A stretch of DNA of 64,000 nt from Gemmatimonadota bacterium. GTDB lineage: Bacteria; Gemmatimonadota; Gemmatimonadetes; Gemmatimonadales; Gemmatimonadaceae. The position numbers and the translations under genes were made by a program. Of this stretch, positions 2,749 to 58,639 are shown piece after piece; the stretch's first letter is position 1; every line of letters starts with the position of its first letter. The stretch covers positions 1-64,000 of the forward strand of contig JAQBPV010000442.1 of the NCBI GenBank assembly GCA_028287345.1, given 5' to 3'. The notes under the pieces are model-generated. The model did no database searches and was not told the origin of the DNA. It worked only from the letters and a program-made list of their open reading frames with translations.

Positions 2749-4059
2749 CTAATCAGCTGCCGCCAGCTCCGCTGGCACCACGTCGACCCGCGGCGTTCGC
2801 TGTTCCATTTTCATGTGAAGACGCTCGCCGTCCGCGTGTGCGACGTACGCGACTCCGACGAGTTGGCCCATCACGTTGACGGTGGTCCTGATCATGTCGA
2901 GGAGCCGATCCACTCCGACCACGAGTGCCACACCGGCCTGTGCCTGCGCACTCATTCCCACGGTGTTCAGCACGATGAGGATGGTGACCATGCCGCTGCC
3001 CGGAACGCCCGCACCGGAGATCGCCGACGCCGTGGCGGCGAGCACGATGATGATCTGCTCGGTCAGCCCAAGCGGCACGCCGTAGACCTGCGCGATGAAC
3101 ATCACCGCGACCACCTTGTACAGCGCCGAGCCCGACTTGTTGAGCGTCGCGCTCAGAGGCAGGACGAATCCAGCGACCTTCTTCGAGACGCCGAGCTCAC
3201 ACTCGGCAACCTCGAGGCTCACCGGCAATGACGCATTGGACGATGAGGTCGAGAAGGCGACGAGTGGCGCCTTGACGATCTTGCGAAGAAACGTGACCGG
3301 GTTCATCCCGATGAAGACGCGGACGATGAATCCCAGCACGCCGAAGGCGTGAATCGCTTCGCCGACGACGACTGTCACGCACAGGAAGAAGAGGCTGCCC
3401 AACAACTCCATGCCGAACTGCGCGAATACCGCCCCGCTCAGCGCGAACACGCCGTATGGGGCGAGCTTCATCACCCACCCAATCATGACCATCGAGGTCT
3501 CGTTCACTGCGTCAAAGAACGCGACGATCGGCAGCTTGTAACGATCGGCGAGGGTTCCGGTCGCTGCACCGAACATGATGGTGAAGAAGACGACGGCGAG
3601 CAGGTCGAGGTCGCTCAGCGCGCGGAAGGGATTACGCGGGATGATCTCGAGGATCGTCTGCACGAGCGGAATTGCGACGAGCGGGGCAGCGCTAGCGGTC
3701 GCGAATTTCGACGCGAGGCGGTCGCGCGTGGCGGGATCGAGGCCCGAGCCCGGCTGAATGAGATGAAACGCCGCGATACCCACGCACGCCGCGACGATCG
3801 TCAGCGCGACGGAGAAGAGCAGTGTTCGGCCGCCCACCTTTCCGACGCGTTGCGCGTCACCGAGCGACGCCGTGCCCACGAGGAGGCTGCTTACGACCAG
3901 CGGGAGCACGATCATCGTCATCAGACGAATGAACGCGGTACCCACCGGCTCGATCATCATGACGGCGCGTTGCAGCCACACGACGTCGTAGGCCTTGGCG
4001 GTGATGCCGACACTGGCGCCGACGACGAGCGCGAGGAGGATCTTCGTCGGAAGCTTCAT
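2749..4059 (-). CDS. Dicarboxylate/amino acid:cation symporter (DAACS family)
   Basis: MKLPTKILLALVVGASVG..., AFSTSSSNASLPVSLEVAE and GAGVPGSGMVTILIVL motifs. The ORF track start at 4533 is overextended; ATG at 4059 overlaps the upstream gene stop by 4 bp. Confidence 0.9.
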   Translation of the reverse strand: MKLPTKILLALVVGASVGITAKAYDVVWLQRAVMMIEPVGTAFIRLMTMIVLPLVVSSLLVGTASLGDAQRVGKVGGRTLLFSVALTIVAACVGIAAFHLIQPGSGLDPATRDRLASKFATASAAPLVAIPLVQTILEIIPRNPFRALSDLDLLAVVFFTIMFGAATGTLADRYKLPIVAFFDAVNETSMVMIGWVMKLAPYGVFALSGAVFAQFGMELLGSLFFLCVTVVVGEAIHAFGVLGFIVRVFIGMNPVTFLRKIVKAPLVAFSTSSSNASLPVSLEVAECELGVSKKVAGFVLPLSATLNKSGSALYKVVAVMFIAQVYGVPLGLTEQIIIVLAATASAISGAGVPGSGMVTILIVLNTVGMSAQAQAGVALVVGVDRLLDMIRTTVNVMGQLVGVAYVAHADGERLHMKMEQRTPRVDVVPAELAAAD

Positions 4060-37328: not shown

Positions 37329-37341
37329 CAAGGCAAACAGA

Positions 37342-37539
37342 CAACTGCCTGACGCGGATCAACGCGGATTGTACTGCCGGATCTACACGGATCGTGCCTC
37401 GGGCAGGCGCCTTTCGCGTCGCGCGACATCATCAAAGAACCTTCGACTCTTTTTTTCTACTGCTCTTCAACGTGGTTCGTGGCTTGGCAGTATCCGTGAA
37501 AATCCGGCAGTGTCCGCGTGCATCCGTGTCAGGCAGTTG
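37342..37539. repeat. 198-bp palindromic intergenic repeat, copy A
   Basis: Left arm CAACTGCCTGACGCGGATCAACGCGGATTGTACTGCCGGATCTACACGGAT pairs (imperfectly over about 50 bp) with right arm ATCCGTGAAAATCCGGCAGTGTCCGCGTGCATCCGTGTCAGGCAGTTG; shares exact 25-mer and 18-mer with copy B. Confidence 0.8.
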
Positions 37540-39840: not shown

Positions 39841-39961
39841 CCGGAGCGCGAGCGTGAGCCTCCAGCCACCAGCAAGTCAGAGCGCGAGCTCGGGCTCTGA
39901 GCTGAAGCTCGAGCTCTGGTGGGCTCAGAGCTGGAGGCTCACGCTCACGCTCATACTCCGG
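39841..39961. repeat. Nested long inverted repeat, GAGC/GCTC-rich
   Basis: Exact 17-bp arms GAGCGTGAGCCTCCAGC (39850-39866) / GCTGGAGGCTCACGCTC (39930-39946), outer CCGGAG/CTCCGG, inner CAGAGCGCGAGC/GCTCGAGCTCTG (39878-39889/39907-39918). Confidence 0.75.
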
Positions 39962-55777: not shown

Positions 55778-57040
55778 TCAGAAGGGACCCGGAGGACCAC
55801 CGCGACCACCCGTGGTGGCCGGCTGCAGCGGATTCTTGGTCGCCGCGGTTGCGCCAGGCGCAGCGGCGCCCGCCTGCTGCGTTCCGAGCACGATCGCCGC
55901 GCCCGCGTTGAGATCCTTGCTGTCGATCTGGGTGCGCGAGCCGTCGGTGAGTCCGGTCCGGACGGTGTGCTTCTGCAATACGCCGTTGGCGTCGACGGTC
56001 CAGATGCTTCCGCGTGTTGCGCCTGCACCTGCGGGGCGCGTTCCGGCGGGACGTGCGCCAGCAGGACGTCCGGCGCCAGTTGGGCGCGCCTTCGCGGCCG
56101 CACTATCAACCGGTACCGCGCCGGCCGGTGGCGTAAAGCGCAACGCCGTGGTGGGAACGGTGAGCACGCTGTCAGCGCTGCCGGTGACGAACTTCGCTGT
56201 CGCCGTCATGCCAGGGAGCAGCTTGCCATCCTGATTCTGCACCGAGATGATCGCCGTGTAGCTCACGACGTTGTTGACCGTCGTGGAGTTGAGGCGCACC
56301 TGCTTCACCTTGCCCGTGAACTGGCGATCCTTATATGACTGCACCGAGAACGAGACGTCCTGATCAGGCGTGATGAGCCCGATGTCGCTCTCGTCCACGT
56401 TCGCGAGGATCTGCATCTGCGAGAGGTCGTTGGCGATGACGAACAGCTTCGGCGCCGAGAGACTCGCGGCGACGGTCTGCCCCACGTCCATCGCGCGCTC
56501 GACAACGACACCGTCGATGGGCGAGTAGATGTTCGTATACGAGAGATTCTGCCGCGCCTTCTGCAGGCTGATGTCGGCCGACGTGTAGTTCGCCTTCGCG
56601 ATAGCGTACGTCGACACCGAGGCGTTGAACTCGACGTCGGTGACGATCTTTTGGTCGTGCAGCGTCTTGTTGCGCTCGTACTCGAGCTTGGCCTGCGTCA
56701 ACGGAGCCTGTGCGCGCGCGACACCGGCCTGTGCATCCTGCACGGCCTGCTGCTGCAGCGTGGGGTCGATGCGCGCGATGAGCTGGCCCTTCTTGACATG
56801 GTCGTTGAAGTCGACGTTGATCGCCGAGATCTGCCCGGAGACCTGCGTGCCGACTTCGACGGTGCGCACGGCGCCGAGAGTACCGGTGGCCGACACGGTC
56901 GCGCGAATGTTGCCGCGCTCGACGCTACCAAGGCGGTATTGCGGTGTACTGCTGGCGTCGGCCCGCTGGTGCACCCACAGCGCCGCGCCGAGTGAAGTCG
57001 CCGTGAGTACGGCGGCGATGATGCGTGTCTTGTTGGTCAT
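55778..57040 (-). CDS. Membrane fusion protein (MacA/HlyD-like periplasmic adaptor)
   Basis: VSATGTLGAVRTVEVGTQVSGQISAINVDFNDHVKKGQLIARIDP; IYSPIDGVVVERAMDVGQTVAASLSAPKLFVIANDLSQMQILANVDESDIG. Confidence 0.94.
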   Translation of the reverse strand: MTNKTRIIAAVLTATSLGAALWVHQRADASSTPQYRLGSVERGNIRATVSATGTLGAVRTVEVGTQVSGQISAINVDFNDHVKKGQLIARIDPTLQQQAVQDAQAGVARAQAPLTQAKLEYERNKTLHDQKIVTDVEFNASVSTYAIAKANYTSADISLQKARQNLSYTNIYSPIDGVVVERAMDVGQTVAASLSAPKLFVIANDLSQMQILANVDESDIGLITPDQDVSFSVQSYKDRQFTGKVKQVRLNSTTVNNVVSYTAIISVQNQDGKLLPGMTATAKFVTGSADSVLTVPTTALRFTPPAGAVPVDSAAAKARPTGAGRPAGARPAGTRPAGAGATRGSIWTVDANGVLQKHTVRTGLTDGSRTQIDSKDLNAGAAIVLGTQQAGAAAPGATAATKNPLQPATTGGRGGPPGPF

Positions 57041-57173: not shown

Positions 57174-57373
57174 AACTGCCACAGCTCACACGGATGAACA
57201 GACGCGGATGACTGCCGGATTTTCACGGATCAAACAGCACCTTCCTTGTTTCGTAGTATCCGTGAACATCCAGGTGCTTTCCGTGTCGGTTATCCGTGTA
57301 GGCAGTTGTGTTTTGCAGTATCCGTGAAAATCCGGCAGTACTCCGTGTCGGTTATCCGCGTCAGGCAGTTGTG
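57174..57373. repeat. About 198-bp palindromic intergenic repeat, copy B, with tandemly duplicated right arm
   Basis: ACTGCCGGATTTTCACGGAT (57211-57230) is the exact reverse complement of 57320-57339; right-arm copies 57249-57310 and 57311-57373 are near-identical; shared 25-mer GCAGTATCCGTGAAAATCCGGCAGT with copy A. Confidence 0.82.
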
Positions 57374-57481: not shown

Positions 57482-58639
57482 ATGGAAGCACACGCCAACG
57501 ACCAGGACCTCCCGCTCACGCGACGCGAGATCGCGACGATCATCGCGTTCTGGACCGCGTTCGCGATGCTGCAATTCGCGAACAGGCTGTTCGACGCGAT
57601 GTCCCGCCCTGGCCCGACGAACTTCCAGAGCGGATGGCTCACCATCCCGCTCGTCGATTCCATCTCCTGGGCGCTGCTCACCGCCCCGCTCTTCTGGCTC
57701 GCGTCGCGCTACTCCACGGATCGCGTGTCACGCCGCCAGCAGTTCCTGGTATTCGGTGCCGTCGGTCTCGTCGTCGTTCTTCTCGTCGGAGTGCTGGGCA
57801 CCGAGGCGCGCTCCATCCTCGGCTCGGCACCTCCGGGTGGAGGTGGCGGGGGCGGCCGAGGAGGACGTGGAAATCGCCCGCCTCCCTTCTGGTTCGGCAT
57901 CCTCAACGCGCTCGTCATCTATTTCGGTGTGATCGCGGCCGGCATCGCGCGAGCATACTCGGTGCGCTATCGCGCGCGTCGCGAGCAGACGGTCAAGCTC
58001 GAGCGACAGCTCGCCGAGGCACGCCTCGATGCGCTGCGTCGCCAGCTCGATCCGCACTTTCTCTTCAACACGCTCAACGTGATCTCGTCGCTCGTCGAGC
58101 GCGATCCACGTGGCGTGCGACGGATGATCTCGCGGCTCGGTGGCCTGCTGCGATTCAGTATCGAGGGAGCGCAGGCACCGGAGATACCTCTGCGGCAGGA
58201 GCTCAAGCTGCTCGAGCAATACCTCGACATCATGCAAGTGCGCTTTCAGGGACGTCTCGAGACGGTCGTGGAGGCGGATCCGCGCACGCTCGGCGCGCTC
58301 GTTCCTACGCTCATCCTGCAGCCGCTCGTGGAGAACGCGATCAAGCACGGCATCGAGCGACAGCGTGAGGGTGGTCGTATTCGCATCGAGACGCTGCTGC
58401 GCGATGACGTACTGGTGCTTCGCGTCACCGACAACGGAGCCGGGCTCACGCCGTCTGCGAGCAACGGGAGCGACACGACGGGCACCGGCGTCGGGCTGCG
58501 CAATACGCGCGCACGACTGGCGGAGCTCTATGGAACGAAGCAGAGTTTCTCGCTGTCCGCCGCGCCGGAAGGTGGCGCAGTGGCCGAGGTGTCGCTTCCG
58601 CTGCATTCCACGGAGCCGTTGGAGGTCGCGCATGGCTGA
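57482..58639 (+). CDS. LytS-type sensor histidine kinase (His_kinase/HATPase)
   Basis: ARLDALRRQLDPHFLFNTLNVISSLVERDP, LKLLEQYLDIMQVRFQGRL, PTLILQPLVENAIKHGIE, GTGVGLRNTRARLAELYG. Start moved to ATG at 57482. Confidence 0.94.
   Translation: MEAHANDQDLPLTRREIATIIAFWTAFAMLQFANRLFDAMSRPGPTNFQSGWLTIPLVDSISWALLTAPLFWLASRYSTDRVSRRQQFLVFGAVGLVVVLLVGVLGTEARSILGSAPPGGGGGGGRGGRGNRPPPFWFGILNALVIYFGVIAAGIARAYSVRYRARREQTVKLERQLAEARLDALRRQLDPHFLFNTLNVISSLVERDPRGVRRMISRLGGLLRFSIEGAQAPEIPLRQELKLLEQYLDIMQVRFQGRLETVVEADPRTLGALVPTLILQPLVENAIKHGIERQREGGRIRIETLLRDDVLVLRVTDNGAGLTPSASNGSDTTGTGVGLRNTRARLAELYGTKQSFSLSAAPEGGAVAEVSLPLHSTEPLEVAHG

Follow-up and report, generated by a model that had tools for sequence, protein, structure and literature searches.

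The two palindromic repeats, A and B, of the window analysed here (64,000 nucleotides of contig C46 of G000, a Gemmatimonadaceae MAG of 6.08 Mb, 91.8% complete with 5.6% contamination) are probably non-autonomous, gene-less, MITE-like derivatives of palindromic-arm elements that carry a GxxExxY gene, and are tolerated at transcript ends. The complete element would consist of an inverted arm, a small PD-(D/E)XK nuclease gene (GxxExxY, PF13366/TIGR04256), and a second inverted arm. In the mechanism proposed, the GxxExxY nuclease would recognise and then cut or nick its own arms, repair or replication would spread the arms, and gene-less copies would be moved in trans. The part played by the nuclease is inferred.

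Copy B has an inverted left arm at 57181–57230 (minus strand), which matches the family with 0 mismatches and whose core, 57211–57230, is the exact reverse complement of 57320–57339. An 18-nt loop, read from the sequence at 57231–57248, marks a short-form element. Two right arms follow on the plus strand, a diverged one at 57249–57310 and a consensus-like one at 57311–57373 (core 57320–57339; outer end GGCAGTTG at 57371), the latter assigned from repeat, family, and exact matches. The tandem right arm and its exact inverted counterpart on the left had both been reported in the preliminary description and were found again here. The two right arms are spaced 62 bp apart and share 81% identity over 53 nt, a divergence too great for a recent duplication; B was probably inserted as a short-form copy, and its right arm was then duplicated in tandem. 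The exact 25-mer said to be common to A and B is present at 37487 and 57315, and ATCCGCGTCAGGCAGTTG at 57354 is indeed the exact reverse complement of 37342–37359 in A. The near-equal total length of the two copies is partly coincidental, B being the short form with one right arm added and A the long form. Folding gives a z-score of −7.2 for B and one of −9.2 for A, and 0 of 200 shuffles fold as well for either copy.

Copy B is flanked by two divergent genes, whose identities as macA-like and lytS-like were borne out by Pfam. The former encodes a membrane-fusion protein of the HlyD/MacA adaptor type (55778–57040, minus strand; HlyD_D23, E = 7.9e-20) and the latter a sensor kinase (57482–58639, plus strand; His_kinase, E = 2e-24), after which comes a LytTR regulator gene. 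From B it is 140 nt to the macA-like start on one side and 108 nt to the lytS-like start on the other, B being upstream of both. An effect on macA or lytS expression is possible. A sequence scan of B revealed no sigma-70 promoter or intrinsic terminator. The position of B between two divergent start codons is what one would see if it were a fixed macA/lytS regulatory region, unrelated to mobile DNA; this is highly improbable, being contradicted by some 60 other copies beside unrelated genes. In the nearest lytS relatives found in the genus, furthermore, lytS is not divergent from macA or stands at a distance from it, and they gave no usable orthologous site for B.

The family to which both copies belong was delimited across the G000 genome. 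The arm core ATCCGYGNNNATCCGGCAGT, with up to 2 mismatches, gave 97 matches, compared with none for a reversed control; a blastn search that used only B as query gave 100. These resolve into about 60 loci, which are solitary, dispersed rather than arrayed, and nearly all intergenic; most are inverted pairs in which a minus-strand left arm precedes a plus-strand right arm. Arms are built from words spaced 9–11 bp, the word in the G000 family being ATCCGYG. Long forms have a loop of about 85–110 nt with a common internal sequence (25 aligned), and short forms, among which B with its 18-nt loop and extra right arm is counted, have loops of ~20–30 nt. Two or three elements stand in tandem at loci L046, L048, and L067, which makes tandem duplication a habit of the family. 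The proposal that a repeat family had been inserted at several places is thus strongly supported, by the ~60 loci, by the lack of any blastn match to B at E <= 0.001 in 59 relatives, and by empty orthologous sites of A. An invariant region with no other copies, which the preliminary description had named as the contrary case, is not what the genome holds.

Copy A lies in the gap between dciA and gyrB. Its left arm (37342–37392, minus strand), a family match, lies just past the dciA stop codon; the internal region of the long-form loop, CCTCGGGC...CATCAAAG...GTGGCTTGGCAGT (37393–37486, plus strand), was aligned with 24 other long-form copies, and the right arm (37487–37539, plus strand) is identified by repeat, family, and exact matches. 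The same gap contains no element in five other members of the genus (G001, G003, G004, G005, and G009), relatives that are too diverged to define exact borders or a target-site duplication. In two more species it is occupied by palindromes made of other words, GATTCGCG in G006 (L162) and GGGGATGC in G007 (L158), as if it were a recurrent landing site. A terminator scan at A returned three weak matches, none convincing, of which only that at 37338–37351 (minus strand) touches the element. Downstream of gyrB, at 39844–39952 of the window, there is a further palindrome with 54-nt arms (76% complementary), a 1-nt loop, and GAGC-rich words; a similar GAGC-word palindrome occurs at L188:4427-4546, and the former is probably another dialect of the same kind.

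Arm words differ from one genome to the next. The word of G006 has 10 matches in that genome and 0 in nine other genomes of the genus, G000 included, and a de novo scan of samples of seven genomes found palindromes with differing words, often between convergent genes. Searches for the arm by exact pattern in other phyla gave chance matches inside genes, except in two Gemmatimonadota MAGs. No carrier of the arm was found among viral contigs, and a literature search on the repeat words found nothing. Two ATCCGYG copies (L052 and L082) contain an insert bearing other inverted arms, CTTGAATCATG, which also occur as gene-less pairs (L061 and L068) and around a GxxExxY gene on contig C226 (L288). 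Conversely, an ATCCGYG short form sits inside an element with CTTGAATCATG arms at L076. Nesting in both directions indicates that the two dialects entered one another; the borders of the nested copies do not fix a target-site duplication.

To describe placement, gaps were classed with a gene finder based on codon usage, for which the window served as training set (our own script, and approximate), and background rates were taken from an unbiased sample of 188 kb plus the window. Of the 57 copies, B among them, for which both neighbouring genes could be assigned, 31 fall in convergent, 23 in co-directional, and 3 in divergent gaps. Convergent gaps make up 11% of intergenic bases (p = 8.5e-16), and divergent gaps 31% (p = 2.4e-6). 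With only 3 copies in divergent gaps, B is an exception and atypical, not a typical promoter element. Under the preferred reading, the bias toward 3' ends would arise from insertion preference, purifying selection, or bidirectional use of the hairpin at 3' ends; a bias this strong could also reflect a retained function. An alternative built on the same excess in convergent gaps is that the palindromes are residents that act at transcript ends in both directions, as terminators or 3' stabilisers, and are kept there by selection; their copying would be old and their mobility now irrelevant. GC-rich hairpins in several loops, one followed by a T run (L093), fit that account, but B has no terminator signal, the words are lineage-specific, and empty sites exist.

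The lack of arm covariation also speaks against transcript-end elements under selection. When long forms were oriented, 85.1% of cells were paired, compared with 85.9% in shuffles, and pairs with changes on both sides numbered 5, compared with 8.5 in shuffles; most copies have mismatches at two arm positions. Conservation of the arms seems to be of sequence, not of base pairs, and with no covariation, selection for a hairpin is not shown. Taken together, we regard the transcript-end account as rather unlikely. A structured RNA kept by base-pair selection was rejected, as the consensus fold was weak and covariation did not exceed that of shuffles. An apparent anti-correlation between the arms proved to stem from the insertion of elements in either orientation. 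The window had 0 Rfam matches at the gathering score. Some ATCCGYG copies (L093, L032, and L067) enclose a GC-rich hairpin, which at L093 (G000:C210:5800-11800, near 2977–3040) precedes the T run (GGGCTGGCTTCG...CGAAGCCAGCCCTTTTTT), as if the arms had either captured a terminator or grown up around it.

The case for a derivation of A and B from GxxExxY elements starts from a single locus of G000 (L062; G000:C318:1052-1546), where family arm cores, with 0 mismatches each, stand 455 nt apart with an ORF between them. The ORF encodes a GxxExxY protein (PF13366, PDDEXK_3, E = 3e-39; TIGR04256, E = 9e-39). No other gene-bearing copy of the ATCCGYG family is known; the MAG has a completeness of 92%. 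PF13366 is present in all 24 family genomes tested, and inverted repeats within 300 bp of each gene were therein sought with an approximate inverted-repeat score. GxxExxY genes were found between inverted, periodic-word arms in 34 of 66 cases, compared with 1 of 175 control genes of similar size, that one being the GxxExxY gene of G159. The 29 top-scoring GxxExxY genes, taken as a first batch, differ from controls with a Fisher p of 3e-16, and 17 of the 37 genes in the second, lower-scoring batch are likewise bracketed, so gene selection does not explain the bracketing. About half of GxxExxY genes have no detectable arms.

A second gene type is framed in a comparable manner. Genes for S23/IVP four-helix proteins (PF05635), which number 1 to 11 per genome searched, are framed by simpler inverted tandem words in 27 of the 29 sampled (L327–L349 and L351–L356), and sit in sister elements with words other than ATCCGYG. 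Outside the phylum, on annotated plasmids, 3 of 6 GxxExxY genes score 15 (Bacteroides, Bernardetia, and Sphingomonas), and so do 6 of 8 S23 genes on cyanobacterial plasmids, compared with 1 of 14 neighbouring control genes, which adjoins a framed S23 gene. The framed GxxExxY gene of the Sphingomonas plasmid (L360) lies between fabD and fabG, and framed S23 genes were seen flanked by ribonucleotide reductase genes, by cas6 and cas4, and by cas10 and a cmr3-type gene (L366 on Nostoc pNe_5; L364 and L370 on cyanobacterial plasmids). These appear to be insertions into operons.

Arms and genes can also be linked within and across genomes. Gene-less palindromes were sampled from ~2–4% of most genomes, those of G000 mainly from targeted loci. 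Against this set, 7 of 15 gene-bearing elements have arms whose best match is a palindrome from the same genome, where 1.5 would be expected (p = 1.5e-4). For one of the 7, in G159, that match is to the palindrome that flanks the very gene, and other palindromes of G159 use the same words. In that genome, seven CACGGAGG-word palindromes can be seen in 20 kb (L252; G159:C21:260001-280000), two of which directly flank a GxxExxY gene. Arm words are also distributed by protein subfamily: LGPG-type GxxExxY proteins have GAG-word arms in 8 of 8 cases, whereas the others have GGAT (12), GAG (6), or other words (7), giving a Fisher p of 0.002 for GAG versus GGAT. Protein identity correlates with arm k-mer similarity (Mantel r = 0.18, p = 6e-4). 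An association between word and protein is expected from shared ancestry of whole elements, inherited as one unit, and is alone no proof of recognition.

The residues G-E-Y, D, E-x-K, and Q...Y of the PD-(D/E)XK and QxxxY motifs are retained in 36–37 of 37 proteins, from which the nuclease core appears intact. We take the QxxxY-like motif to resemble that of RecB/Cas4-type nucleases. No chain in the PDB matches GxxExxY, and the NCBIfam and Pfam names for the protein state no biological role. In the literature searched, which most subscription papers and preprints lie outside, GxxExxY had only incidental mentions, and no description of it in palindromic elements was found.

The strongest rival to a nuclease that moves its own arms is that GxxExxY is cargo only, another enzyme moving the palindromic arms while small genes ride inside. 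Three unrelated protein families are found in inverted-arm elements made of tandem words, namely GxxExxY, S23/IVP, and 2 of 4 Y1_Tnp genes, so something general might mobilise the arms, and the GxxExxY genes that stand without arms point the same way. The correlation of arm word with nuclease subfamily across genomes and the catalytic motif kept in nearly all copies argue otherwise, as does the absence of a Y1 transposase from G000 and from the element-rich G159. Cargo status is a serious possibility, but the less probable one.

Several known systems were compared with the family. REPs are single hairpins of 20–40 bp, tagged GTAG or CGTC and tied to RAYT tyrosine transposases, and TIRtrons are RAYT-like genes within long TIRs that belong to dispersed TIR families (PMC3733652). 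In REPtrons and TIRtrons, whose RAYT or TIRYT genes lie between REPs or long TIRs (PMC3733652), a gene-bearing element with inverted ends is, as here, accompanied by many gene-less copies that are intergenic and 3'-biased, but theirs is a Y1 tyrosine transposase, whereas the gene here is the PF13366 GxxExxY gene and the arms are arrays of periodic words. That A and B are ordinary REP/BIME elements spread by a RAYT is very unlikely: palindromic, intergenic, and 3'-biased as they are, and known as TIR-flanked RAYT relatives are, the elements measure ~200 bp and lack the 20–40-bp hairpin with a GTAG or CGTC foot, and their gene-bearing copy encodes a PD-(D/E)XK protein. A search for Y1_Tnp (PF01797) gave no match in G000, and none in G159 or G004. 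In G005 and G007, GGGGTCAG-type arms surround the Y1_Tnp genes (L254 and L255), as in the TIRtrons of PMC3733652.

The likeness to MITEs lies in a length of ~200 bp, non-coding sequence, inverted ends, dispersal over ~60 loci, and ends identical in core to those of the gene-bearing C318 parent, the putative autonomous element. One difference is that the parent enzyme here is not a known transposase; as for a target-site duplication, neither the diverged relatives nor the nested copies fix the borders that would reveal one. ERIC and BIME sequences are, like A and B, imperfect intergenic palindromes of about 130–200 bp, unrelated to them in sequence, and we know of no GxxExxY-bearing form of either. 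The closest parallel for the S23 elements is the 23S rRNA intervening sequence (IVS) of Coxiella, a selfish element of 428 nt that has terminal inverted repeats of 28 bp and an S23p gene (PMC4990558). Tandem heptamers lie beside its ORF; it is excised by RNase III and is possibly a transposition remnant (PMC4990558). As in such 23S rRNA IVSs, a small ORF lies within terminal inverted repeats in the framed S23 genes sampled here, irrespective of whether any of them is in an rRNA gene, and these elements look like relatives of the Coxiella IVS. A and B differ from it in being intergenic between protein genes, in being gene-less, and in having arms of the GxxExxY type and not the S23 type.

On a broader view, held more tentatively than the origin of A and B, there may be a broad and so far undescribed class of tiny mobile elements, present in many bacterial phyla, whose core genes are those of GxxExxY nucleases and S23/IVP four-helix proteins. 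Short periodic words in inverted arrays would form the ends of these elements, drifting into dialects particular to each genome while co-evolving with the protein; many unexplained dispersed palindromes would be gene-less copies, and 23S rRNA IVSs would be members that landed in rRNA genes. This would bring dispersed palindromes, S23 genes, and rRNA intervening sequences under one frame, and it would supply a reason for the presence of a palindrome, copy B, in a promoter gap. By linking GxxExxY to intergenic palindromes through anatomy, statistics, and the association of protein with word, the analysis offers a concrete, testable role for these widespread proteins.
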